Virus record (IMG/VR): IMGVR_UViG_3300043409_001994
Coordinates: 1-21,487 of that record
Length of the DNA: 21,487 nt
Reading direction: 5' to 3' (one strand)
Source: a virus
Positions within the stretch are counted from its first letter, which is position 1; every line of letters begins with the position of its first letter. The notes beneath the pieces are model-generated. The model searched no databases and was not told the origin of the DNA. It saw only the letters and a list, made by a program, of their open reading frames with translations. Both the position numbers and the translations under genes were made by a program. Positions 2,049-20,370 of this stretch are shown here, piece after piece.

Positions 2049-3125
2049 TTAGTTGGTTTCTGCAAGAACTACAGACTGGTCTGTGATTAGACCTAGGCCG
2101 TAGATAGCATACCAAGCAAGAGCGTGCTCACGACCGAAGTCAAGAATACCGCCGTCACGAAGTTCCACAGGAAGTGAAATAGCGTGACCAAATGCGTTGT
2201 CACCGATAAAGATTGCTGAGTAGCGATCCTTGTTACCGTTACCGGTCTTTGTAGCTGGTGATGTGTATCCTCCACCAGTTGGGTAAGTGATGTCTCCAGG
2301 AGCAACAACTGAATCAGTTGTGTATCCTGAACCAGCTCCGCCGCCTACTTTTTCAATCTGAGTTGTTTCGATGAATACTGTGTCATATAGACGACCGATT
2401 TCACCGAGCATGAAGTTACCAGGTGCTGCGTACTTGGTTACTTCAATGAACTCAGGATTGTCACGAAGACGACGAGATTGGTGAGGGTGCACGAATGCAA
2501 CATATGTCTCACCTAAGCGAGGGATGTTCTTGGTTGAGAGTGTCTCAACTGCGTCTTTAACAACGTGTGGTGAAAGGTAGGCAGCACCTGTTAGGGTTGC
2601 ACGGCTTGTAGCCATTGTGCCATAGTCATACCAGTTGTTAGAGCCTGTTAGAGCTGAGCGATCTTCACCGTAAATAACAGATGAAGCGGCCATGAGTGTG
2701 TCACGAGCCTGTCCATCAAGGTAAAGTGCCATGTTACGTCCAAGAAGACGTGATGCTGATGCCATAACGTCATCAAATGATGCGTTAAGTAGAAGTTCTG
2801 ATACAGCAATTGCAAAGCCGTGCTCTGCTACTGTGATTGAGAACTGCTGTGCTGTCAATGCGTTTGTTGACATACGGACGCCTTCAACGAGTGAAGATGC
2901 AAATCCGAGGTTGTTGTAACGCATAAAGTTAATCTGTAGACCAGGTGCGACGCCTAGTTCTGTCTTCTTAACAGCGAACTGTTCGAAGCGAAGAATTGGC
3001 ATTGACTGGAAAAGAATTTCCTTTGACCAGATGGTCTGAATTGCTTGTGTCAGGTTGCTATTAGCACCTGAGTATGCTGTAGGTGATGCGGCGAGATTGC
3101 CGGTACCTGTTACGGCTGATGCCAT
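2049..3125 (-). CDS. Major capsid protein, N4-gp56-like (HK97 fold)
   Basis: A 358-aa protein. The segment ETYVAFVHPHQSRRLRDNPE and then the region GNFMLGEIGRLYDTVFIET match the characteristic core of the N4 gp56-like major capsid family: a 'HP' loop, a helix, then GEIGR followed by a strand ending in ET. The N-terminus (TQAIQTIWSKEILFQSMPIL, then a lipophilic helix) and the late 'FIGDNAFGHAISLPVELRDGG' region fit the same family. It would form the icosahedral shell together with the upstream scaffold. The ATG follows GGAG at a somewhat long spacing. Its codons look more GC-rich than those of neighbours, as expected for a highly expressed gene. The 3' flank carries a 12-bp hairpin. Confidence 0.9.
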   Translation of the reverse strand: MASAVTGTGNLAASPTAYSGANSNLTQAIQTIWSKEILFQSMPILRFEQFAVKKTELGVAPGLQINFMRYNNLGFASSLVEGVRMSTNALTAQQFSITVAEHGFAIAVSELLLNASFDDVMASASRLLGRNMALYLDGQARDTLMAASSVIYGEDRSALTGSNNWYDYGTMATSRATLTGAAYLSPHVVKDAVETLSTKNIPRLGETYVAFVHPHQSRRLRDNPEFIEVTKYAAPGNFMLGEIGRLYDTVFIETTQIEKVGGGAGSGYTTDSVVAPGDITYPTGGGYTSPATKTGNGNKDRYSAIFIGDNAFGHAISLPVELRDGGILDFGREHALAWYAIYGLGLITDQSVVLAETN

Positions 3126-3170: not shown

Positions 3171-3932
3171 TTACCCAAAGATTCCTTTATTTTTAGAATT
3201 AGCTGAATCTCCCATCAGCTTTCCTCGATGCTTTGCGTATTCAGTAACCGACATAGCGGCAATTTGTTCCGCTGTAAATGATTGTGAGTCCGAATTATTT
3301 TCCATTGTTGGAGGCAGTGTTGTTCGTGTGCCAGTCATATCACGACGCTGGGCTTGAATAGCTTGTTGCGCCGATTCCAAAATCTTAGCAGATCGCTCTC
3401 TAAGACCCGTAATACTGTTTTCTATTTCATCGTGAGTATTTCCTGAGATTAGATCTACAAGCTCAGGGATAATATTTTCACGTTCTTCTTCTAGGCGACG
3501 TGACCGATATGAAGTAAGTTCTGCATATTGACGTTCACGTTCTAGTAGGGCATCTTTACGAGCTGCTTCCTGACGGATTGACTCGATCTGTGCTCCCCAT
3601 TCTTTTTCTTTTGTTTCAAGAAGTGTACGAACATCCATTTCGGATTCAGATATACGCTTAGCTTCTAGCTCAGCTTCTGTTTTAAGGCGTTCAGCTTCCG
3701 CTGTACGCTCTTCGTCACGCTTCTTAAGAAGTGTTACTTCTTCTTTAAGAGAATCAATTTGAGGATAGAGCTTAGATTTCTCTTGCTCACGAACCTTTTT
3801 TAGATCTTCTTCTGTATATCCCCTAGCCTCTACAAAGTTTGTGTTGGGAGGGGTATTTGGTGTTGTGCCAGCTGCTTCAGATGCGAACGCTTCTTGTGCT
3901 ACTGCGCTTTCTACAACGGGTGAATCTGCCAT
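3171..3932 (-). CDS. Head scaffolding-like protein
   Basis: A 253-aa, highly charged protein between portal and major capsid genes, the usual place for a scaffold. Residues about 35-190 are almost continuous predicted coiled coil, rich in Glu, Lys, Arg and Leu (EEDLKKVREQEKSKLYPQID and onward), with a disordered N-terminus rich in Pro, Thr and Asn. The C-terminal stretch (FTAEQIAAMSVTEYAKHRGK) is a short helix-turn-helix, which in many scaffolds is the capsid-binding element. No protease motif is visible, so it does not look like a fused prohead protease. AAAGGA precedes the ATG at good spacing. The function rests on position and composition rather than on a sequence signature. Confidence 0.75.
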   Translation of the reverse strand: MADSPVVESAVAQEAFASEAAGTTPNTPPNTNFVEARGYTEEDLKKVREQEKSKLYPQIDSLKEEVTLLKKRDEERTAEAERLKTEAELEAKRISESEMDVRTLLETKEKEWGAQIESIRQEAARKDALLERERQYAELTSYRSRRLEEERENIIPELVDLISGNTHDEIENSITGLRERSAKILESAQQAIQAQRRDMTGTRTTLPPTMENNSDSQSFTAEQIAAMSVTEYAKHRGKLMGDSANSKNKGIFG

Positions 3933-4040: not shown

Positions 4041-5759
4041 CTATTTATTTTCCTCAGAGTTAGGGGTGTCAGTTTGAGCACTACCTACTTCACGCTGTGG
4101 AAGTTTTGTTCCATATGCCTTAGTAACAAGTTCACTTTGCATCTGGGCCAAAGTCTGTTCTTCAAATGGAGTGATGACCCCCGGTTGCCCCATAGGGCCA
4201 GGGCCAGTTCCATCACCAGGAGCAGCTCCTGGAGGAAGAGTTCCATCAGGCATCATACCAGTTAATGATGTGATAGCTGAATTGATCTGCTGCTTGATGA
4301 GGTTGAGCGCTCCATCTGCCTTTGCATCGGCAATAAGCTCTGCCCGAATTTCTTCAAGCTTTTCATCTGGAAATTCCTCACCTAGCTGGCGTAGAGCTCC
4401 TTCACGGCTCTCTAACTGCATGTTCATCTTCTGTTGGATCTCATTAAGCACAATGAGTTTATCTAATGGAAGTGGGGGTGGGAAATGAACAATTGATTCA
4501 TACGTTAGTGGATCAAGCAAGTTAAGCTGTGGTAGCTGTTGTGCTTTGATAGGCCCATTAACATCTGGGTTATATGTAAAGATCTCTGGTTCTTTGAAAG
4601 CAAGGGTAAGAAGAACAAGCTCGTTGATACGGCGTAGGCCTTCTCCGTATTGAACAATCTTCTGTTGGTAACGGTTCATCAATGGCTGGTACTGAATAGA
4701 AAGTGCAACGCCTGATGTGTTAGAAATAGGCTGAACTTGTCCAAGAGCTGTCTCTGGAACCCCGACCATCTCGTGCATAGCAGTCTTAATGATCTTAAGG
4801 TATTCCATAGCACCTACAAGACCTTGTCCGCCACCTTCTAGATTAAATACTTGTGCGTCCTTTGGAAGACCGCCCCATACTTTCTTAGGGCCCTTTTCAA
4901 GACCTGCTGCCTTAGCTCCTGTAATAACAGTAACTGGTGCTGCATGGTAATTAATAATGTCTGCAATATCTGTAGCAACTTCATTGTAGTTACGGTTAAG
5001 AACAATGACGTCATGGCAATCAGAAAGTCCCCATGGAGATCCTGATACTCGGACGTTAGGAATATGAATGACTGGAACAACGCCAATTGGATTTGGACGA
5101 GAGTCAATAAGCTCGTCGTTAATGTATTCTTCAATTCGATCATCAGTCAAGATTTCGGTGTAAGTGTATACCTGGCGTGTCCCCTCAACTGAAGTACCCC
5201 AAAAGCGGTACTTTAGTTTAAAACGTATTAGGCGAGAACGGTCATGTGGGTGAAACTCTGGAAAACAAAAAGATGAATTGAGTGGAAGTATACGAACACG
5301 GCCCGGGTGTGGGCGCCCTGTTGAATCTTCATATGACTCTTCATAAGCTACTTTAACAAAACAATCGCCTGAAACCCCGCCTTGCTGGCCCATCTCCCAC
5401 ATAACGCCGTGCTTGTCGTTATCAATTTCCCATACACGTTTTAATAGATCTGGGACGATAGCCTCTGTTGCAAGTGGACTTCTGTATGTGGCACCACGGC
5501 CAAATGTAAAGTTAATAATAAAATCTGTAAATGCCCTGTAATAATTGTAAACCATCTGGGACTCACCAAATTCACGGCGGTACGACCAATGGTGTCCTAG
5601 ATACATTGCCCAGTTAAGGGAGTATCTGTTTAAGCGTGGACCGTGTACTTCAAATTCTTCGTCAGCTAGTTCTACTAAACCAAGAGGAGAAATGGAGATA
5701 GTTAAGTCGCTCGACGCCGCTCTATACGACGGAGGACTAAAGTCTACGCCACCACTCAT
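4041..5759 (-). CDS. Portal protein
   Basis: A 572-aa protein placed between terminase and scaffold, as portals normally are. The N-terminal half is of mixed alpha/beta type (SLNWAMYLGHHWSYRREFGE; DCFVKVAYEES). The centre has the crown/stem-type region with PNPIGVVPVIHIPNVRVSGS and SPWGLSDCHDVIVLNRNYNE, typical of SPP1 gp6-like portals, where a clamp helix is followed by a 'GVP' or 'G-x-PE' loop (MHEMVGVPETALGQV). The C-terminal tail is Pro/Gly-rich and disordered. As a dodecamer it would form the DNA channel at the unique vertex and dock terminase. The ATG overlaps the stop of a 6-codon open frame just upstream (ATGA), and only a weak GGA precedes it. Confidence 0.88.
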   Translation of the reverse strand: MSGGVDFSPPSYRAASSDLTISISPLGLVELADEEFEVHGPRLNRYSLNWAMYLGHHWSYRREFGESQMVYNYYRAFTDFIINFTFGRGATYRSPLATEAIVPDLLKRVWEIDNDKHGVMWEMGQQGGVSGDCFVKVAYEESYEDSTGRPHPGRVRILPLNSSFCFPEFHPHDRSRLIRFKLKYRFWGTSVEGTRQVYTYTEILTDDRIEEYINDELIDSRPNPIGVVPVIHIPNVRVSGSPWGLSDCHDVIVLNRNYNEVATDIADIINYHAAPVTVITGAKAAGLEKGPKKVWGGLPKDAQVFNLEGGGQGLVGAMEYLKIIKTAMHEMVGVPETALGQVQPISNTSGVALSIQYQPLMNRYQQKIVQYGEGLRRINELVLLTLAFKEPEIFTYNPDVNGPIKAQQLPQLNLLDPLTYESIVHFPPPLPLDKLIVLNEIQQKMNMQLESREGALRQLGEEFPDEKLEEIRAELIADAKADGALNLIKQQINSAITSLTGMMPDGTLPPGAAPGDGTGPGPMGQPGVITPFEEQTLAQMQSELVTKAYGTKLPQREVGSAQTDTPNSEENK

Positions 5760-6605: not shown

Positions 6606-8180
6606 TTAAAAAAATGGTGAATTAGATACTTCTACTGAAGGCATAACCATATCCACTGTCATAGAACAAGCAAGGGCTAAAGAGTCAACAAAGTCATCGT
6701 GGGCGTGTGCTTCGTCTGGTGCGGCAACTAGAAAGTTAGGTCCTTTATAGGTAATTTCCGCATCTGTCATTTGTTGGTAAAACTTCTTCCAAATACGAAG
6801 ACGACGGGTTTTAGCATGGGCTGGCCATGAAACCATCTGTCGTTGAATAAGGGCTTGAAGGTGCTTCCAACGCTTAGATTGTTCTGTAGGGCTAGAAGTA
6901 ACAGGTATAACTTCAGCACGGGGCATAAGAATTTTAAGACGTCCGGCCACTGCGTCACCTACACCATTGGCGTCAATGCCAATAGCAAGCACATCATAGT
7001 TAGATAAAAACTGTTGGATCTGGAAGTATTGTTCTTCCCAATCATCTCCTTGAAGTTCTAGCCAGTTAAGTACTCTATGGTCATAGTAACCATACTCATC
7101 TGGCCTATCCCAGTCTACCCACACCACTGTTACTACAGTAGAGTCCATTTTACGGGCGGGGTCAATGCCAACCACAACCGGAGAACGATGATAGGACTTA
7201 ACTACTTCTTGAGAGGTATCCCCTAAATCATCCATAATATTAGAGGTAATAAACATACCACGGTCTAAAAGCCACTTACAGTTATACGATAGTTGGAACT
7301 CATCTGAGTCTTCTCCAATACGGAGCATTTCCTTCTTAATAAACTTACCGTAGTTATCATTGAACTTAACTACATCTTTCCAATCCCATTGAAAATGATT
7401 TTGTTTAGAGTTACGGCCTTGAGTTTGTCTACGCTTATTAAGAGTAATAGCACGATAAAAATTGTTTTTGTGGGTTGTAGGTGTACCAGTTTTAACCATT
7501 GTAGCGTTATAGTACGCACCCATAGGAGCAATAGACTTTGATACTACAAAGTCGTCTGCTTCTTGACACTCATCAATAATAATAAGGTGGAAAGACTTAG
7601 ATTCAATCTTAGCTCTTGGGTTAGCTGTCATCATCATAAGAGTAGAGCCTGAGTTCTTAAGCTTAATATTTCTTACAACCCCGGGGTTTTTACCCACAAT
7701 GTCATCAATTTCAGGATCACCTAAAATTTGAAGCGCTTGTTCACTTGTTAGTCTAGATACAGTACGTCCGTATAGGGTTTCTACCTGAGATTGAATAGGG
7801 GCAAACATACCCACCCAAATGCCGTCACCAAACTTACCAAGTAGATCTGGGTACATTTTAGCTAATCTTGGCAAGATAACCATTAATGTGGCCACTGTGT
7901 TTGCAATAGTCTCTGACTTACCTGACTGACGTGAAGCAAGGGCTGTTACTTCTTCACCGTCGTTAATAATAACTGACTCAATGATACGTCTAGCTAGGGG
8001 TGCTTGATATGCGTGGAGCTCATGGCCTACCAATAAAACCATAAATGACATGACCTTATTAACTAATAGTTTAACAAACTCTTTAGATAGTTCATCTAGT
8101 TCATCTTCTTCTTCTTCAAGAAAAGGTAAATCATCTTCAAGCTCTTCTAGCTCAACAGTGCCAAATTGATCCTCACTCAT
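6606..8180 (-). CDS. terL: Terminase large subunit
   Basis: A 524-aa DNA-packaging motor with ATPase and nuclease halves. Walker A is SRQSGKS at 83-89. Walker B is LIIIDE at 199-204 with the catalytic Glu, and a coupling-motif-like TGTP is at 231-234. The RNase H-like nuclease shows its acidic residues at D340 (VVVGIDPARK), D403 (AIGIDANGVGD) and D495/D496/D499 (HDDFVDSLALA). The first 30 residues are strikingly acidic, an unusual extension before the adenine-binding region. It cuts concatemeric DNA and drives it through the portal. The ATG overlaps the preceding TGA (ATGA) with no obvious Shine-Dalgarno, so it is probably translated by coupling to the 80-aa gene. That neighbour may be the small subunit, but this is unproven. 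Confidence 0.95.
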   Translation of the reverse strand: MSEDQFGTVELEELEDDLPFLEEEEDELDELSKEFVKLLVNKVMSFMVLLVGHELHAYQAPLARRIIESVIINDGEEVTALASRQSGKSETIANTVATLMVILPRLAKMYPDLLGKFGDGIWVGMFAPIQSQVETLYGRTVSRLTSEQALQILGDPEIDDIVGKNPGVVRNIKLKNSGSTLMMMTANPRAKIESKSFHLIIIDECQEADDFVVSKSIAPMGAYYNATMVKTGTPTTHKNNFYRAITLNKRRQTQGRNSKQNHFQWDWKDVVKFNDNYGKFIKKEMLRIGEDSDEFQLSYNCKWLLDRGMFITSNIMDDLGDTSQEVVKSYHRSPVVVGIDPARKMDSTVVTVVWVDWDRPDEYGYYDHRVLNWLELQGDDWEEQYFQIQQFLSNYDVLAIGIDANGVGDAVAGRLKILMPRAEVIPVTSSPTEQSKRWKHLQALIQRQMVSWPAHAKTRRLRIWKKFYQQMTDAEITYKGPNFLVAAPDEAHAHDDFVDSLALACSMTVDMVMPSVEVSNSPFF

Positions 8181-9345: not shown

Positions 9346-9461
9346 ACACTAACTACGTAACAAAAGAGTTGCAACTAGCCTGGCAGACAGACGCCGGGCT
9401 ATTCTAGTCCAAGTGACAGTTGGATAAGGATCCGGGTTGGCTCTCTAGCCTAGGAGATAGT

Positions 9462-9980
9462 GTGCTTATTAATGAAAAAAAGAAATATATAGCAGTAATA
9501 CTCTCAGTAGTCCTTATAGTATCCGGACTATTTACCAACAGCGCTAATGCTGTTAAAGTTAAGGTTATAAAACCTTGCCTGTCCCCAGTATCTAAATACA
9601 TGCACGCCAAGAAACTGACCCCAGCTCAGGTCTATGACCTATTGAAAATGGTTGGGTTTAAAGGCCATGAATTAAAGGTAGCTTGGGCAGTGGCTATGAA
9701 AGAATCAAACGGTCGCCCATTAGCGCACAACTATAATCCTAATACGGGAGACAACTCGTATGGCATGTTCCAGGTTAACCTCTACGGGGCTCTGAAGGGC
9801 CGTATAAAGCAGTACGGGCTTAAGTCAGCCAATGACCTTAAGGACCCTGTTATCAACGCTCAGATCGCCTACAGGATGTCTTCAAAGGGTAAGAACTGGA
9901 GTCCTTGGCATGCTGATCCAGGTGAGCGTGATCGCCACCTAATTGTAAAGTGGCTTGCACTATACCCGACTAAAGTTTAA
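9462..9980 (+). CDS. Secreted lytic transglycosylase / lysozyme-like endolysin
   Basis: A 172-aa protein, the only plus-strand gene inside the late block. Residues 1-30 are a signal peptide or signal anchor: a KKK patch, the hydrophobic stretch YIAVILSVVLIVSGLF, and an ANA cleavage-type site. Residues about 70-150 have the SLT/lysozyme-like core: AWAVAMKESNGRP with catalytic Glu81, then GDNSYGMFQVN, the conserved 'N-(S/Y)-G-(L/M)-x-Q-(I/V)-N' strand. It would cut peptidoglycan outside the membrane, using host secretion. The frame extends back to a TTG at 9420, but the GTG at 9462 has AGGAG five bases upstream and gives a proper signal peptide. No holin is evident next to it. A virion-associated lysin is an alternative role. 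Confidence 0.85.
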   Translation: MLINEKKKYIAVILSVVLIVSGLFTNSANAVKVKVIKPCLSPVSKYMHAKKLTPAQVYDLLKMVGFKGHELKVAWAVAMKESNGRPLAHNYNPNTGDNSYGMFQVNLYGALKGRIKQYGLKSANDLKDPVINAQIAYRMSSKGKNWSPWHADPGERDRHLIVKWLALYPTKV

Positions 9981-11666: not shown

Positions 11667-11839
11667 TAGTTATTGCTACCTGATGACCGGCCAAACTTTT
11701 GATTAGTAATAGCATTATCCCCTGGGCCTTCATAAGACTCATTGGTTAAGTATTCCTTTGCCTCGCGTGCACGCCTATGCAAGGTATACCCCTCTTGTTT
11801 AGGCTTAGGTTGGTCAAAGAAAATGTCTTTCCTAGACAT
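11666..11839 (-). CDS. 57-aa hypothetical protein
   Basis: A short polar protein (MSRKDIFFDQPKPKQEGYTL...), read directly from the sequence. Both ends are TAATG overlaps: its ATG overlaps the stop of the 1233-aa gene, and its stop overlaps the next ATG. That double coupling is the main support. No domain is recognised. Confidence 0.6.
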   Translation of the reverse strand: MSRKDIFFDQPKPKQEGYTLHRRAREAKEYLTNESYEGPGDNAITNQKFGRSSGSNN

Positions 11840-14800
11840 TAGTACTCTAACTTATTAGTGTCTGCTATAGCCTTTGTAGAACCGGAATCAAACTTAACAT
11901 GAGTTTTACCGCTTCCATCATGATTTGAACTGTATCCAAGTACAGTACCTGTTCCATGCTGCTTGTGTGTAACAGCTGCTCCTCTAGTAGACGGTGTGAA
12001 ACGAGATAGTTCTTGGTTCTTAGTTGTCTTACCTTGTTTATCTGTAACGTGAGTGTGAATGTTATCTCCAGTAAAGGTCTTTTCTTTCTCACCAAATTTA
12101 ACAGTTGCTGTAGTTTGTCCAGTACCGCCAATAACAAGTCCGTGGGAAACAACTGTTCCTACACCGTGCTTTGGATGGTAAACAAATTCACCAGGTGTGA
12201 ACATCTTAGGTGTAGCTGCTTTTACCTTTTCAGCAGCAGTTCTTGCAATTTTACGAGCACCCTTAACACCATATTTACCTGCTTTGGTTTTAAGCGCAGC
12301 TTCTTCGTCATTTGGAAGACGATTGCCTTGAGACATAATATATCCGCCAGATGCCAGTTCTCGGGAATCACCCTTTTCAACAGTTACTCCAGCAGTAGTA
12401 GAACCTTCTGGTCTAATTACAGATGTAGCAGGTGCTACTGGAGCATCTGGATCAGTTACACCGCCTGCGGGTATATCACTGTTACGTGGCCACGCAGAAC
12501 TTGGGCCAGCGGGTGCAGGTACACCACTGTTTTCTAAATCAGCAACAAGAGTATTAGTAATTTCTTCATGTTTCTTTCGGCTTGCACCTTTAATAGGTGA
12601 TCTAGCAGCCGGTTCAAATCCTAGATCATTATCTTCACCAGCATAAAGGTCTTTTCTAGTTTGAGTTAAGCTCTTTCCCTTTTCAACGGCTGCACGAATA
12701 ACCTCTCCCTCATGTATAGCACCTGTTGGAATACTATGCTTTTCAAGTAAAGTAATTTGTTTTCCTGTTTGTGGATGAGTTACTCCAGGGGTTGGATGCC
12801 AACCTTGATGTCCTGTAAATGCTATAAATGTTCCAGGTTCTTTAGGATTTGGTATTCCACCTTTAAATATGTGGCTTCCTTCTAAAGTACCTTTACCACC
12901 TGGTAGTGGATGATCAGGGTGATTAACTTCTGATAAAGGAACAAGTGCGCCATTTTTTGCACGAAAGTGTACTTTATCTGCATCAAGTCGATTATCACCA
13001 GAATCATCCATGCTATAAGTAATACCCGTTCCTGGATTTTTGGTAGCATGAAATTTTTCTTCAGCTTTAAGATCGTCGTGCATACCTTGAATTGCTGTAA
13101 TATTTGTTGGAGAGTTGCGTGGCCCACCCGCAACTGTGTCTAGTCTTTCCTCAGCAGCATCAGATATGCCTCCCGTTTTGTGAAGAACAAAAGCTTTAGC
13201 TCTATGCTGGCGCATACCTGTTCCTGTCATAATGTCAGGATTATCTAGGTCCCCAGCATTTTTTATAACTCCGCCTTCTTCTTCAGGCCGCATAGCCATG
13301 TCCATAGCAGTATTTTCAACTTCTTTGGAATATGTAGTATCTTCGTAATCATCGCCAAGTTTTGCCGCAAATTTTGCTTTACGAGCTGCATCTGCGGTAA
13401 TTTGATACTCATCACGTCCAGCAGTAGCACCAGTTGGTCTACCGCCAGGGTCTAAAACTCCTGCTTTCTTTTTTGCGTTCTTAGCTTTACCTGGTACTAC
13501 AGAAGTACTTTTTTGTGCTTGTTTAAAACGTTCATCATCTGAAAGAGGCTTACCGTCAGCACTCTTTACTACTTCAGCATATGTAACAGCTTCTCCTCCA
13601 GGAGCAGAAGTATCTTCAAATGCACGCATTGGAATAACATTTCCAGATTTAGTTGGAACTGTTCTACCATTATCTATAACAGCTTTAGGTACTCTATCTA
13701 TACGTCCTTCTACAACCTTTGTCTTAGGACCTCGCATTTGCGTGCTAACACCTTGTTCTAGGATATCAGTGCCCGCCTGTGCACGACGCCCACGTTCTGC
13801 ACCAGCAGTACCGCTAGCATCTGGTTCAGAACCAATGTTTGGTACAGGCTCTTCTAATCTTTCTATTTTAAGATTTTTTGGTACTGGAACTTCACGCATA
13901 GTGGTGCTGTTAGGAGAATTAGGATCATCGTACGCAGGTTTTACATTACCCTGCTCATCAAGAGGATCTTCATACTCTGTTTTAAAGTTAGGACCGCGAT
14001 CTACTTCGTCAGGAATTACATTTCCTTCAGCATCCAAGCGTTTTTCTTTACGTGGACCACGTGTCCTATTAAGTTTCTTTTGCTTCTTTTCATATTCTAA
14101 TGCAGCTTTACGTGTAGATTGCTCACGTTCATTTTCAGCACGATCTCTTGGAGTATCAATAACTTTGTATGTAGACTCTTCATCTGCTGCTTGCCATTCT
14201 TCTGAATCAGGATCAAGTTCTATTGATTCTGCTTGATTAGTAGGACTAGTAGGACGTTTGTCAACGTAATTATCTTGATACTCTGCTGGGTTAGCCTCAT
14301 CCGCTTTTGTTGAAAGTCCAGAAGTATCAGAAAGACCTGCCTCACCCTCTTGCGATGCTAGTTCAGCTGCTGTAGAAACAACAGAAGAAACTCCTTCGGA
14401 CTTACCAAAAGAACTTTCCGCTTTTATACGTGCTTCTGGATTATCTTGTTTTGGTCCTAGCTGGGCATTAATAAGTTCTTCTTTTGTTTTTGCTGGTGTT
14501 GTAGAAGCAGGAATAGGTGACTCATAAGGGGTTCCGTTTTTTATTGCGTCTTCTTGAGTTTTACCAAGTTTAGAACGACCACTGGTAATTCCTTCAAGAT
14601 CAGCGTCAAAGGTAGAAGGAGCTACTTGTTCTTTAATTGCTACATTTTTTCCTGCTGGTTCCCAAGTCTTAGAGGTTTTAGTATAAGATTTACCATTAAC
14701 AGTATATGTTGTTTCTCTATCTGGTCCTGGTTTAAGTACAGGCCTTTTTTGTTTATCTAATTTTGCTTTAAAATATGTGTCACCCGTTGGTCGTACAGAA

Positions 14801-15540
14801 GATGCTGCAGTTGCTGCTTCTGCTTCCCTATCTGCTAAATCATAAGTAACACCATTTTTTACACGTGTTGTAGAACCGCTAGCTTCTTCTTTAGCATTAA
14901 TTTCTGATTCGTTAGCTAGTAAAGTATTGCGCTCAGTTTCTTGAGCAAATTCAACACGCCGCTTAGCTTCTCTTTCTGCTTTTCCTGGATCCATTGCATT
15001 AGCAGCATCTTCTGCAGAAATAAAAGGCCCTTGTAATGGTTTTCCTGCTTTACCTTTTGGACGACGTGTTGGTGCTGGGTGTGTGCCCGCAATTACGGGT
15101 GCGGGGCGACCAATTTTAGTTTCTGGTTTTTCATAGGCTTCGCCTTCAGCGTTAACTCGCATGTCAGTAGTTGCTAAATTTTTACGGGCTTCTTCAAGTC
15201 TATCTTTAATTCTAGTGGGGTTGCCACCTGTAGTACGAATTCTATTAGCTTTTCTATTTGCTAATCGTGACAGTGCAATTGGTTTACGACCACCAGCATT
15301 TTGCTCAGGACTTTGTTTTAACCCGTAAGTTTCAGCAGCATTATCTTCAAGTACCATACCTGCTGCACCCCCAACCATAATGCCATCAGCATCTTTTGTT
15401 GCAGGAACTGAGGGAACTCTTGCAGCTTTAGATGGGGTAGCTGGTACAACCGGTGCACTGGAAGTTTGGGTAAAAGCTGTGCTTGTGTCAGAGTCTAAAG
15501 CTTCTCTTATTTTTGTTATTTGTGTGTCAAATTGTCCCAT
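11839..15540 (-). CDS. Very large low-complexity protein with two C-terminal SH3/Tudor-like repeats
   Basis: A 1233-aa protein, the largest in the window. Most of it is charged and disorder-prone (Lys, Glu, Asp, Pro, Thr, Ala), with a more ordered region around residues 840-980 (KVHFRAKNGALVPLSEVNHP; FIAFTGHQGWHPTPGV). The C-terminus holds two related units at about 1117-1160 and 1186-1233. The first has YHPKHGVGTV followed by TATVKF; the second has THKQHGTGTV followed by THVKFD. Each resembles the small barrel seen at the C-terminus of UvrD/PcrA helicases and the CarD/Mfd RNA-polymerase-binding domain. Inference: a virion-internal or host-interaction protein that binds DNA or RNA polymerase. 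It starts directly after the stop of the 219-aa gene (TAA then ATG). Confidence 0.75.
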   Translation of the reverse strand: MGQFDTQITKIREALDSDTSTAFTQTSSAPVVPATPSKAARVPSVPATKDADGIMVGGAAGMVLEDNAAETYGLKQSPEQNAGGRKPIALSRLANRKANRIRTTGGNPTRIKDRLEEARKNLATTDMRVNAEGEAYEKPETKIGRPAPVIAGTHPAPTRRPKGKAGKPLQGPFISAEDAANAMDPGKAEREAKRRVEFAQETERNTLLANESEINAKEEASGSTTRVKNGVTYDLADREAEAATAASSVRPTGDTYFKAKLDKQKRPVLKPGPDRETTYTVNGKSYTKTSKTWEPAGKNVAIKEQVAPSTFDADLEGITSGRSKLGKTQEDAIKNGTPYESPIPASTTPAKTKEELINAQLGPKQDNPEARIKAESSFGKSEGVSSVVSTAAELASQEGEAGLSDTSGLSTKADEANPAEYQDNYVDKRPTSPTNQAESIELDPDSEEWQAADEESTYKVIDTPRDRAENEREQSTRKAALEYEKKQKKLNRTRGPRKEKRLDAEGNVIPDEVDRGPNFKTEYEDPLDEQGNVKPAYDDPNSPNSTTMREVPVPKNLKIERLEEPVPNIGSEPDASGTAGAERGRRAQAGTDILEQGVSTQMRGPKTKVVEGRIDRVPKAVIDNGRTVPTKSGNVIPMRAFEDTSAPGGEAVTYAEVVKSADGKPLSDDERFKQAQKSTSVVPGKAKNAKKKAGVLDPGGRPTGATAGRDEYQITADAARKAKFAAKLGDDYEDTTYSKEVENTAMDMAMRPEEEGGVIKNAGDLDNPDIMTGTGMRQHRAKAFVLHKTGGISDAAEERLDTVAGGPRNSPTNITAIQGMHDDLKAEEKFHATKNPGTGITYSMDDSGDNRLDADKVHFRAKNGALVPLSEVNHPDHPLPGGKGTLEGSHIFKGGIPNPKEPGTFIAFTGHQGWHPTPGVTHPQTGKQITLLEKHSIPTGAIHEGEVIRAAVEKGKSLTQTRKDLYAGEDNDLGFEPAARSPIKGASRKKHEEITNTLVADLENSGVPAPAGPSSAWPRNSDIPAGGVTDPDAPVAPATSVIRPEGSTTAGVTVEKGDSRELASGGYIMSQGNRLPNDEEAALKTKAGKYGVKGARKIARTAAEKVKAATPKMFTPGEFVYHPKHGVGTVVSHGLVIGGTGQTTATVKFGEKEKTFTGDNIHTHVTDKQGKTTKNQELSRFTPSTRGAAVTHKQHGTGTVLGYSSNHDGSGKTHVKFDSGSTKAIADTNKLEY

Positions 15541-16734: not shown

Positions 16735-17574
16735 TTAGTCGTTGAGGTAACGAACGTGGATGTTAGTTCCTTCGTCCTTAATATCTCCTGGTTGGTTCCA
16801 GAAGCGCATAAGAGTAATAACATTTGTTAACTCTGGTCCTGCCCAGATATTTCCAATAGCAGAATCATCTAGATTAAGAGCAGTTGCTGTTTCAAATTCG
16901 ATCCAGCTGTCTTCTCCATCAGCGTTTAGATCTGTAATTGTTACTAAGTCTCCAAAGTCTTCAAGGTTGTTGTCAACCCATACTTTGTCTCCAACTTTTA
17001 GTCCTACAAGGGCAAGTTCGTCATCCCATGGGTCAGTGTCCCAAGCGTATACACGAACTGTTGTTCCTGTTGACTCGATGTAATCAATGTCAATGTTGTG
17101 AGCAGTTGCAAATAAGTCAAGGTTTAACTTATCAAGTTCGTACTCAGCTTGTGCAAGAGTCTTACGAACCAAGTTAGGAACTACTTGTTCTAACTCTGGA
17201 TCTTCATCTCCTGCGTAACCTGGAATAAATCCTGGGAAGTTCTGGTGGCCAAGAGTTGCAATTGTGTGGCTATCTGCTGGTGACTTAACTTCTAAGTTAT
17301 TAAGCTCTAAGTTATAGTCAGCTGTACGAAGAGTATCACTTGTATTTGTAAAAGTTGAGCTCCAGCCTATATCGCCTTCTCCGCCACCAAAGCTGATGTA
17401 TTGGTCTGTGCGATCATCATCTGGCTGCATTGGTAGGTTGCCCCACTCACGTGCAACTTGTACGTTTCCTGTTACTAGGCCTGCACCTGTTGGGTAGTAC
17501 CCTGAACGAAGAACACCGTCTTCATCTGTAAATACTTGGAAAGAAGTCTCTTCCCATTTTTCTCTGGTTGTCAT
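16735..17574 (-). CDS. Putative virion protein with PASTA-like segment
   Basis: A 279-aa acidic protein. Residues 131-154 (VVPNLVRKTLAQAEYELDKL, then NLDL) fit the start of a PASTA domain: 'V-P-N-L-V-G-K-T-x-x-x-A-x-x-x-L-x-x-x-x-L'. PASTA domains are known for peptidoglycan or beta-lactam binding in bacterial kinases and PBPs. The rest is beta-rich (GLKVGDKVWVDNNLEDFGDL; WIEFETATAL). The C-terminus ends with a conserved-looking strand (TNIHVRYLND). It has a good GAGG and ATG start and a strong hairpin behind it, as expected for a highly expressed virion protein. The precise structural role is unknown. Confidence 0.65.
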   Translation of the reverse strand: MTTREKWEETSFQVFTDEDGVLRSGYYPTGAGLVTGNVQVAREWGNLPMQPDDDRTDQYISFGGGEGDIGWSSTFTNTSDTLRTADYNLELNNLEVKSPADSHTIATLGHQNFPGFIPGYAGDEDPELEQVVPNLVRKTLAQAEYELDKLNLDLFATAHNIDIDYIESTGTTVRVYAWDTDPWDDELALVGLKVGDKVWVDNNLEDFGDLVTITDLNADGEDSWIEFETATALNLDDSAIGNIWAGPELTNVITLMRFWNQPGDIKDEGTNIHVRYLND

Positions 17575-17637: not shown

Positions 17638-18204
17638 TTAGGCTTCTTGTACGTATGTAATTATTTCTCCGCCAGAGTAAATGTCATGTTTTATAGCTGC
17701 TTCTATAGCCCGATGTATAGCTTTTTCAGCTTGAGCGGGAGATTTTATTTTTTGGTAGTTTAAAGCCTCTAAAGCTCCCAGTGCAATGTCTCCACCGGAT
17801 CCTGAGTAATAAACGTTGCGGGCTTCTCTATCCCAAGAGTAATCAGAACCAATTGGATAGATAACACCGTTAAGTACTACAATCAAATCTGAATCAGTCT
17901 CAGCAGCAGCACCGTCATCTTTACCTTCATAGCCTGCATCTTGAAATGCTTTACGAAGTGAAGGAATAAATTTTTTAGTCATAAAAACATCTAAATTTTC
18001 AGTAGCACGAGGTTTTGGTGGTTTCCATCCAAATTGTGCAATATTGCCTCCACGGCTTGCGCCGGAGACCGCTATCAGTACACCATTGTTATTTATAATC
18101 TTTGATGTAGCTAAATCCATATATCGCCCACCTTCTTCAGATGCACGAGAATCACAACCTATTACAGCCCAACCGTCACCTTGTATCGCGGCAAGCGTTG
18201 TCAT
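17638..18204 (-). CDS. Proteasome beta / HslV-type Thr protease
   Basis: A 188-aa Ntn-hydrolase. After Met removal the protein would start Thr-Thr (MTTLAAIQGDGWAVIGCDSR), exactly as in HslV and mature 20S beta subunits, so no propeptide is needed. The expected active-site residues are visible: T2 as nucleophile, D18 (GCDSRAS), K35 (TSKI), S136 in SGSGGD, and D174 plus S177 in HDIYSGG. Length is close to HslV (about 175-200 aa). It should assemble into a hollow ring protease. Nothing resembling a partner unfoldase (HslU, Mpa/ARC, ClpX) is encoded in the window. It could use a host ATPase, degrade unfolded substrates, or process virion proteins. GAGGG precedes the ATG. Confidence 0.88.
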   Translation of the reverse strand: MTTLAAIQGDGWAVIGCDSRASEEGGRYMDLATSKIINNNGVLIAVSGASRGGNIAQFGWKPPKPRATENLDVFMTKKFIPSLRKAFQDAGYEGKDDGAAAETDSDLIVVLNGVIYPIGSDYSWDREARNVYYSGSGGDIALGALEALNYQKIKSPAQAEKAIHRAIEAAIKHDIYSGGEIITYVQEA

Positions 18205-18240: not shown

Positions 18241-18636
18241 CTATTCGTCAAAACCCAAGTCAAAATGTTGCCCACGGGTTCTAGGAAGGTTTCCGTAGTT
18301 AATTTCCATCCAAGGCCACCCAAGTAGTGCAGTATCTACGTAATCGTTTGTAGAAGTGGACATAAGTAACTCTTCCCACATATCGGGGGAAACTTGATCA
18401 TATTGAATCCAAGTGTGCTTATCACGCATGATAATCACAAGAGTTTCTGTATACGGGTTGTAACCGGCCTTTAAAGCTCGGGGACGCTCCCCACCACTAG
18501 TCGGAGCATAGATCTCTTGGTAACCAGGACCAAAGACTCTACTACGAACTTTATCGTATTGTAGTGCAGCAGTTAAAGCAGCGTAGCTATCGTAATCTAC
18601 TTTAGGCATAAAACGTCTGCCTCTATACCTGTCCAT
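18241..18636 (-). CDS. KTSC-like domain protein, copy 2
   Basis: A 131-aa protein. Residues 35-110 (VFGPGYQEIYAP, then PRALKAGYNPYTETLVIIM and WIQYDQVSPDMWEELL) are clearly related to residues 52-144 of the protein at 19667-20164. The segment from 'GY' through the paired strands to the helix ending in 'LL/LK' resembles the KTSC fold ('G-Y-(D/N)-x-x-x-x-x-L-x-(V/I)-x-F...Y-x-x-V-x-x-x-x-(W/Y)-x-x-L'). KTSC function is poorly known, with proposed links to nucleic-acid-acting proteins. No clear Shine-Dalgarno precedes the ATG at 18636; the internal ATG at 18609 (MPKVDYDSY) is an alternative. Confidence 0.65.
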   Translation of the reverse strand: MDRYRGRRFMPKVDYDSYAALTAALQYDKVRSRVFGPGYQEIYAPTSGGERPRALKAGYNPYTETLVIIMRDKHTWIQYDQVSPDMWEELLMSTSTNDYVDTALLGWPWMEINYGNLPRTRGQHFDLGFDE

Positions 18637-19051: not shown

Positions 19052-19074
19052 ATTATAGCATACTTTTATGCTAT
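19052..19074 (-). promoter_or_regulatory. Extended -10 promoter-like motif at the Hsp20 3' end, with palindrome
   Basis: The minus strand reads TATGCTATAATAG, containing an exact extended -10 (TGCTATAAT). The motif is the right arm of a perfect 8-bp inverted repeat, ATAGCATA/TATGCTAT (19055-19062 and 19067-19074). No -35 match is evident. Transcription from here would meet the terminator at 18975-19009 after some 70-80 nt. Confidence 0.45.
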
Positions 19075-19596
19075 TTGGATAACCTTCGGCTTCTTTTCTT
19101 CTGGTAGCTCTTGCTCCAGAGTAATACGTAGTAATCCATCTTTAAGCTCTGCACCCTTGACGACTACATACTCAGCTAGAACAAAGCTTTGCTTGAAGTC
19201 TCTGGTTGCAATTCCCTTATGGATAGGCTCCTGCTCAGATGCCTCTAATTCGCCTTCTACGGTCAGTGTGAGCTCTTTAACGGTGATGGTAAGGTCTTCC
19301 TTACCAAAACCTGCTACAGCAAGCTCAAGGACGTAATGGTCCTTCTTCTTGTAGATATTATAGGGCGGGTAGCCGCTAGCTTTAGTTGTTAGAGATACTT
19401 CTTTGAAGGTATCAAATAATGGATCAAATCCAATAGCCCACCGATTGAACTGTGGGAATAGGGAGGTGATTGTTAGTGGTTGGTCAACCTTTGTTACTTT
19501 AGGATATTGATCATAATCTTTTGGACTTCTAGGTCCCCAAGGATCTGTGTAACGATCTTTGTATGGATGTTGTTCAGGCATGGGCATATTAGCCAT
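19066..19596 (-). CDS. hsp20: Hsp20 family small heat-shock protein
   Basis: A 176-aa alpha-crystallin-type chaperone. The N-terminus has FNRWAIGFDPLFDTF, the motif shared with IbpA and T4-like cyanophage Hsp20. The alpha-crystallin domain spans about 77-165: YPPYNIYKKKDHYVLELAVA, GFGKEDLTITV, and GLLRITL near its end (the 'G-x-L-x-(I/V)-x-(L/V)' signature, with Leu in place of the usual Val). The C-terminus KPKVIQIA is the I-x-I-type tail used for oligomer contacts. It would hold unfolding host or virion proteins in a refoldable state, and its neighbour proteasome-type protease suggests a joint proteostasis role (inference). AAGGAG precedes the ATG, and an extended -10 lies 60 bp upstream. 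Confidence 0.92.
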   Translation of the reverse strand: MANMPMPEQHPYKDRYTDPWGPRSPKDYDQYPKVTKVDQPLTITSLFPQFNRWAIGFDPLFDTFKEVSLTTKASGYPPYNIYKKKDHYVLELAVAGFGKEDLTITVKELTLTVEGELEASEQEPIHKGIATRDFKQSFVLAEYVVVKGAELKDGLLRITLEQELPEEKKPKVIQIA

Positions 19597-19666: not shown

Positions 19667-20164
19667 TTATGAAGCTAGTATAGAAGCAACTACTTCGTTT
19701 AATCCCTTTTGGTTATTTCCTGGTACATCTGACCACGCATAACCACTTAGCTCTGATCTTAGCCAATCACCTGTTGAATGAGCCATCTTCAAGCTATCCC
19801 AGGTATCTTCATCTATTCCAGTATAGAAGATCCATGGCGAAGGCTTTCCCGAATCTGCAGCCCATACGCCTTTAGTAATTCTACCTGGTGGTCTAAATTC
19901 TATGACTAACAGTTCTGCTTCTCTATGATATCCACAGTAGTATGCCCTTGGTGGCTTTCCCGCTGGTGTCTTACTAGGAGCTGGTATCTCTTCAAAGCCA
20001 TCCCCGAATATTGCTGAGTTATGAAGACTAGGTACTGATCCTAATAAATCTACCTTAGTTTGATCAGGATCCTCTTCCATACGCTGTATAAGAGAAGGAC
20101 GCTTAGATTTATAGAGTTTACCGTTTTTACCTAGGTAGTACCCGTCAGGAACATTAGTAGCCAT
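19667..20164 (-). CDS. KTSC-like domain protein, copy 1
   Basis: A 165-aa protein from the ATG at 20164 (MATNVPDGYYLGKNGKLYKS); the frame stays open to 20245 but the extra 27 residues do not look natural. Residues 52-144 (IFGDGFEEIPAP, PRAYYCGYHREAELLVIEF, WIFYTGIDEDTWDSL) are the same domain as in the protein at 18241-18636, with an insertion of about 15 residues between the strands. It appears to be the first minus-strand gene of this transcription unit. No clear Shine-Dalgarno is visible. A TATCAT stretch ends only 7 bases before the ATG, which would suit a leaderless mRNA. Confidence 0.65.
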   Translation of the reverse strand: MATNVPDGYYLGKNGKLYKSKRPSLIQRMEEDPDQTKVDLLGSVPSLHNSAIFGDGFEEIPAPSKTPAGKPPRAYYCGYHREAELLVIEFRPPGRITKGVWAADSGKPSPWIFYTGIDEDTWDSLKMAHSTGDWLRSELSGYAWSDVPGNNQKGLNEVVASILAS

Positions 20165-20370
20165 AGGTGTAATGATACTACTTGGCCACTGCCTTGAAAG
20201 TCTGAGAACCCCCCGAAATTTTTGCCTCATCAACTCTATGATCATTGGGAGAGTTTTCCCGCATCACAGCATAACAAATTGTGATCTAGATCTTAGCTAC
20301 CGAAACACTAAATTACCCCGCCCAATTTATCGTTTAGGCCACTGCCTTTTCCCATTTTGAGCTGCCAGTT

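Follow-up and report, generated by a model that had tools for sequence, protein, structure and literature searches.

A proteasome-type threonine peptidase of tailed phages, exchanged as a whole gene between close relatives

Here we present an analysis of a viral DNA of 21,487 nucleotides (IMG/VR record IMGVR_UViG_3300043409_001994, positions 1 to 21,487; designated the window), in which the minus-strand open reading frame (ORF) 17638..18204, read from 18204 to 17638 and 188 amino acids (aa) long, is confirmed as a genuine threonine peptidase of the proteasome superfamily (MEROPS T1); a chance match is excluded. The slot that the gene occupies is a swap site, at which distantly related proteases have been exchanged from start codon to stop codon. 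Moreover, the protease seems not to be needed for building the virus head, its dispensability having been observed in related phages of ~39 kb. Two candidate jobs can thereby be separated: required head maturation does not fit, and an exchangeable accessory role does. We lean towards an autonomous, self-compartmentalizing threonine endopeptidase, predicted to be catalytically competent and encoded by an exchangeable accessory gene in the late region.

Results and discussion

Active site and predicted fold

The original prediction, a proteasome/HslV-type threonine peptidase with a complete active site, was borne out by Pfam, PHROGs, AlphaFold2 and Foldseek analysis and by the homologues. All of the residues named in it are present in the ORF: T2 directly after M1 (codon 18201-18199), D18 (18153-18151) and K35 (18102-18100), all read on the minus strand, as well as the loop S134-G-S136-G-G, D174 and S177. 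In 20S beta subunits their counterparts are Thr1, Asp17, Lys33, Ser129, Asp166 and Ser169; in addition, G48 matches the oxyanion Gly47. The prediction had named no strand for the ORF, which is on the minus strand, with a purine-rich stretch, GAGAGGGACAAATG, upstream of its start codon. The profile searches that had been proposed placed the window protease above the cut-off of the Pfam Proteasome model (PF00227; E=6.7e-7, 29.6 bits vs 22.4) and matched residues 1-186 to phrog_1040, "peptidase HslV family" (E=4.5e-28); the match is near full-length, although phrog_1040 is a broad cluster, and every homologue scanned matched it over nearly its full length. With the NCBIfam HslV model the score was 12.5 of 137 bits, far below the cut-off. 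A sequence search of the PDB retrieved 20S beta chains, most strongly across residues 121-184.

The monomer structure prediction that had likewise been proposed, run with AlphaFold2 on an input of 57 homologues, yielded a model with a mean pLDDT of 92.4 and a pTM of 0.88, in which the order of strands and helices is that of the proteasome fold, the Ntn alpha-beta-beta-alpha sandwich of solved family members. A Foldseek search of solved structures returned BPH (PDB 5ovs, 5ovt; PMC5777263) as the top match, followed by HslV and 20S beta subunits, with E-values down to 1.3e-13, the value for BPH, for which the TM score was about 0.7. Judged from this model, the fold appears closest to BPH and HslV. 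Helices are predicted at residues 50-58 and 71-89, and strands 36-39 and 42-48 are linked by a short turn. The loop at 90-105, AGYEGKDDGAAAETDS, contains five acidic residues and is the least certain region of the model (block pLDDT 65).

T2, D18 and K35 are invariant in 101 of 101 distinct viral homologues (for one, L052, whose row was mis-started, they were counted from its annotated start), so that the loss of these residues, named beforehand as what would speak against the assignment, was not found. This invariance reaches homologues of only about 25-30% identity. Of the homologues, 100 have S or T at position 136, 97 have D at position 174 and 96 have S or T at position 177. Among close relatives dN/dS is ~0.03-0.1, and for most pairs dS approaches or exceeds saturation; as read from the sequences, the active site is under purifying selection. 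In every case the protein starts with Met-Thr and lacks a propeptide.

Distribution and relation to known systems

The view that this is an unusual phage gene did not survive: relatives are encoded by at least 547 IMG/VR contigs (profile scan), a PHROGs family exists, and phage and bacterial proteasome homologues, PPH and AAH, were described by Fuchs, Alva and Lupas in 2021 (PMC8665760). Named carriers include Actinomycetia phage DSL-LC01, Arthrobacter phages Hum25 and Pitbull, Microbacterium phage Pumpernickel, Psychrobacter phage D'Alembert, Moorella phage MTATph1, Vibrio phages and others, and in several named phages the homologue had already been annotated as a protease or as HslV. The protease is also encoded by LanE43-AprE7 (E7) and AprF5 (F5), the first phages of 'Ca. 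Nanopelagicales' to be brought into culture (PMC10202952), whose entries are filed as 'Caudovirales sp. ct2KA10'; within this pair the F5 protease is 92% identical. WhiB, an actinobacterial marker, was found in 25 of 26 long protease-bearing records. Because WhiB is common in the relatives and the cultured E7 and F5 carry the protease, the window is most likely DNA from a phage of freshwater actinobacteria. E7 and F5 are lytic and infect 'Ca. Planktophila', a group of lake bacteria that is very abundant, so that proteomics can address the role of the protease directly. Nine distant bacterial homologues (26-41% identity), some with Ser first after Met, came from a second scan of genome contigs, the first having given none.

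This kind of protein is therefore already known, since PPH and AAH were described in 2021 and an HslV encoded without HslU in a Salmonella jumbo phage was noted in 2020 (PMC7823757). PPH and AAH, found in tailed phages and bacteria, resemble the window protein in being small and proteasome-like, in having Thr1, Asp17 and Lys33 and in lacking a propeptide. By its description, however, PPH is ~140 aa long and lacks helix 2, whereas the window protein is longer, at 188 aa, and helix 2 is predicted in it. According to the 2021 report, AAH has no member among actinophages (PMC8665760), whereas the relatives of the window are actinophages, the comparison being with the description of AAH rather than with AAH sequences; if the proteins prove to be AAH, they would fill a gap noted in 2021, the lack of any known AAH homologue in an actinophage. 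HslV (ClpQ) shares the fold, the active site, a length of about 170-190 aa and the lack of helix 5, but no HslU gene was found in these phages. BPH, a cellular gene, is about 21% identical to the window protease and is a demonstrated tetradecamer, whereas the window protein is known from its sequence and a monomer model. No partner unfoldase is known for BPH, and its pore loop is long and acidic (PMC5777263; PMC8665760); the acidic loop 90-105 of the window protein falls in the same place, by sequence position alone. Our literature search found no experiment on these phage proteins and no proteasome-like phage protein with a known job.

Gene surroundings

Within the window the protease gene lies in a long minus-strand late region, and the order in its ~100-kb lineage is Hsp20, KTSC, protease, PASTA-like, giant ORF, lysozyme (opposite strand), terminase, portal, scaffold, capsid. 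The immediate upstream neighbour, on the minus strand like the protease, encodes a 131-aa KTSC-domain protein (18241..18636; Pfam KTSC E=2.3e-5, narrowly short of the cut-off), and the protease start lies 36 bases beyond its end. About 30 related loci have this gene immediately before the protease, and it forms one flank of the slot in the lineage of the window. The other flank is a weakly PASTA-like 279-aa protein (16735..17574, minus; Pfam PASTA E=0.047, below the cut-off), and relatives have ORFs akin to it on the downstream side of the protease. Two genes upstream is an Hsp20/IbpA-like small heat shock protein (19066..19596, minus; Pfam HSP20 E=3.6e-16, phrog_432), and a second, weaker KTSC-like protein is encoded at 19667..20245 (minus; Pfam KTSC E=0.0022, below the cut-off).

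Downstream of the protease a giant ORF of 1233 aa with no family match (11839..15540, minus) is co-directional with the late genes and is probably itself a late gene; the ~39-kb lineage, too, has giant ORFs downstream of its protease. An SLT lysozyme gene (9420-9980) is on the plus strand amid the minus-strand late region, an opposite orientation that is kept in many relatives. The packaging and head genes, all on the minus strand, encode the terminase large subunit (6606..8180; Pfam Terminase_6C E=1e-10), a portal protein of the SPP1 gp6 type (4041..5759; Pfam SPP1_portal E=1.6e-22), a probable separate scaffold of 253 aa (3171..3932; no family match, assigned from its portal-capsid position and coiled-coil-like sequence) and the 358-aa major capsid protein (2049..3125; phrog_1357 E=2.2e-65, residues 19-357 on profile positions 23-344), which has no long N-terminal extension.

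The ~39-kb lineage has its genes arranged as terminase, portal, protease, small genes, giant protein, scaffold and capsid, and E7 shares this order from the terminase through the giant protein. The protease follows shortly after the capsid gene in the lineage of L100, has a phosphatase, a deacetylase-like gene and the terminase nearby in ~130-kb phages, and is among early or metabolic genes in the Arthrobacter, Psychrobacter, Moorella and Microbacterium phages.

Exchange at the slot

Eighty loci were fetched by the portal protein alone, of which 76 had room for the protease and four ended too early. These 80 are the best-scoring loci and include many near-copies, so the fractions given here are not population estimates; the contigs compared are metagenomic and mostly incomplete. 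The protease was found 18-105 bases after the portal in 53 of the 76 loci, and the proteases of this portal slot fall into four clusters that are about 30-41% identical to each other. Mapped on the portal tree, the state of the slot (four clusters plus "none") changes at least 13 times, against a possible minimum of four. The clearest case is the pair L154 and L156, in which the portals are 99.5% and the flanking DNA 92-97% identical, while the proteases (L154:5755-6324 and L156:5755-6309) are 31% identical: homology ends at the ATG and resumes at the stop codon, an ORF-precise exchange. A single chimeric assembly is no explanation, because the second type was seen with this portal background in four contigs of different metagenomic origin. 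The model of the L156 type has the same fold as that of the window type. Near-identical phage pairs that differ mainly in protease type amount to natural allele swaps.

Exchange is also seen at larger distances. The E7 portal is 67-73% identical to those of the ~39-kb lineage, and its protease is only about 30% identical to the commonest type there; that commonest type is 61-65% identical to the window protease, and the window portal has no significant similarity to those of this lineage. In the lineage of the window itself, four loci (L248, L262, L284 and L290) fill the same KTSC-flanked slot with proteases 44-47% identical to that of the window; where the contig includes the capsid gene, the capsids are 89-91% identical. 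No protease was found on L297 and L299, incomplete contigs of this lineage (45 and 35 kb). That the protease has been replaced repeatedly suggests that different versions are favoured by an antagonist or by a host-specific substrate.

Is the protease needed for the head?

A prohead role was suspected because in the ~39-kb relatives the protease directly follows the portal, the classic protease slot, and the original prediction was correct that the head module of the window contains no recognised prohead protease. However, 23 of the 76 loci, with the same portal type and from the ~39-kb lineage, lack the protease. All 23 have in the slot a basic, Lys-rich protein of 83-90 aa (one is longer by a reading-frame artefact), which was never found in the slot of protease-bearing portal loci. 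This Lys-rich protein has an acidic tail (L167, L173, L177, L180, L181, L184, L200 and 16 other loci). Seven of these contigs, 30-41 kb long, had no proteasome-like gene at any position, and these "none" calls were made with profiles that detect all four protease types. Since a third of the phages with that portal do without the protease, it is not required for that head, and a required prohead protease as a general role is rejected on account of these absences.

The head proteins themselves look like the uncleaved scaffold type, the capsid proteins having no N-terminal delta domain and the scaffolds being separate genes. A separate scaffold and a capsid protein without a long N-terminal extension is the pattern of phages that need no maturation protease. 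A hidden canonical prohead protease of the S49, ClpP or S78 type was also sought. S49 and ClpP-type proteases were absent from the 26 records each, and S78 was restricted to large genomes: DSL-LC01, where it passed the cut-off when the genome was scanned but fell slightly short when the proteins were, and two others with weak matches. For these three types the candidate was rejected. In DSL-LC01 the weak S78-type prohead protease domain is inside an 855-aa protein (L142:3600-6167) and coexists with the proteasome-like protease. The canonical prohead proteases (S78, S49, S14) thus share with the proteasome-like protease the post-portal position in one lineage, but are unrelated in fold and chemistry, and the proteasome-like gene is dispensable with that portal.

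Candidate partners and a proposed mode of action

Hsp20, with which the protease had been proposed to act, was found in nine of the 26 long protease-bearing records, all from the lineage of the window. Its place beside the protease is kept in that ~100-kb lineage and absent from the others, and an obligate Hsp20 partner is therefore rejected. No ClpX/HslU-type unfoldase scored above the cut-off in the 26 records (AAA_2 profile). One phage candidate for the unfoldase, a weak AAA_2 match, proved to be an AAA_5/MoxR-type ATPase; an ATPase of that type is encoded at L140:270-1709, in the lineage of the window. A host partner of the HslU, ClpX or Mpa type may take this role. Exchange of the protease without its neighbours means that the enzyme is independent of a co-adapted partner beside it.

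An autonomous BPH-like enzyme is favoured because the gene is exchanged without its neighbours, no phage unfoldase was found, and the acidic loop is placed as in BPH. In the proposed mechanism, host methionine aminopeptidase would remove Met1 and so free Thr2; with an N terminus of Met-Thr and no propeptide, this step would suffice to expose the nucleophile. The subunits would then assemble into a double ring of six- or sevenfold symmetry with the active sites inside, and the acidic loop after helix 2 might line the pore, as in BPH. Such a particle could take in unfolded proteins or peptides without an ATPase of its own and, late in infection, would degrade host or misfolded phage proteins, a role in proteostasis or host-protein turnover. 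In the lineage of the window, Hsp20 perhaps helps the protease.

Alternative explanations

We consider it unlikely that the protease replaces a canonical prohead serine protease in virion maturation, trimming the scaffold, the portal or the giant internal or tail proteins. The idea draws on the terminase-portal-protease-giant protein-scaffold-capsid order of the ~39-kb relatives, which are one related lineage (53/76 loci) and whose order E7 shares up to the giant gene, on the post-capsid position in the L100 lineage, and on the lack of S49 and ClpP-type proteases and confinement of S78 to three large genomes; nearness to virion genes could still mean processing of virion proteins. It is weakened by the 23 protease-less phages of the same portal type, by swaps to a 31%-identical enzyme while the virion neighbours remain 92-97% identical, by the architecture of capsids and scaffolds, by the S78-like domain alongside in DSL-LC01, and by the early or metabolic setting in the Arthrobacter, Moorella, Psychrobacter and Microbacterium phages. 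A further role for such an enzyme, also improbable in our estimate, is counter-defence or host takeover, in which it would remove particular host proteins, such as defence effectors or sigma factors, its variants following host variation or escaping an inhibitor. ORF-precise exchange, presence/absence variation and mutual exclusion with a small gene are typical of host-conflict genes, and patchy phage peptidases have been interpreted as host-directed (PMC7824862), but the protease matches no defence family and has no known target, proteasome-type enzymes are usually broad in specificity, and a late-region location is unusual for early counter-defence.

Very improbable is an Ntn hydrolase that has ceased to act as a protease, such as a connectase-like protein ligase. 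The superfamily does include a ligase, and many of its new branches lack tests (PMC8665760); against this, the best fold matches are active peptidases, strands 3 and 4 are not separated by a helical insertion as in connectase, and the catalytic set is complete. Returning to the exchangeable accessory endopeptidase, a more speculative extension, which we regard as possible but doubtful, is that freshwater actinophages maintain a dedicated exchange slot, driven by a varying host target or inhibitor, and thus a conflict-driven protease system. If so, protease types would act like receptor-binding variants in host range.

A minor observation concerns one of the ~130-kb phages (L007:8610-10074), in which the protease is followed by a dual-specificity phosphatase and a histone-deacetylase-type gene, perhaps an acetylpolyamine amidohydrolase.
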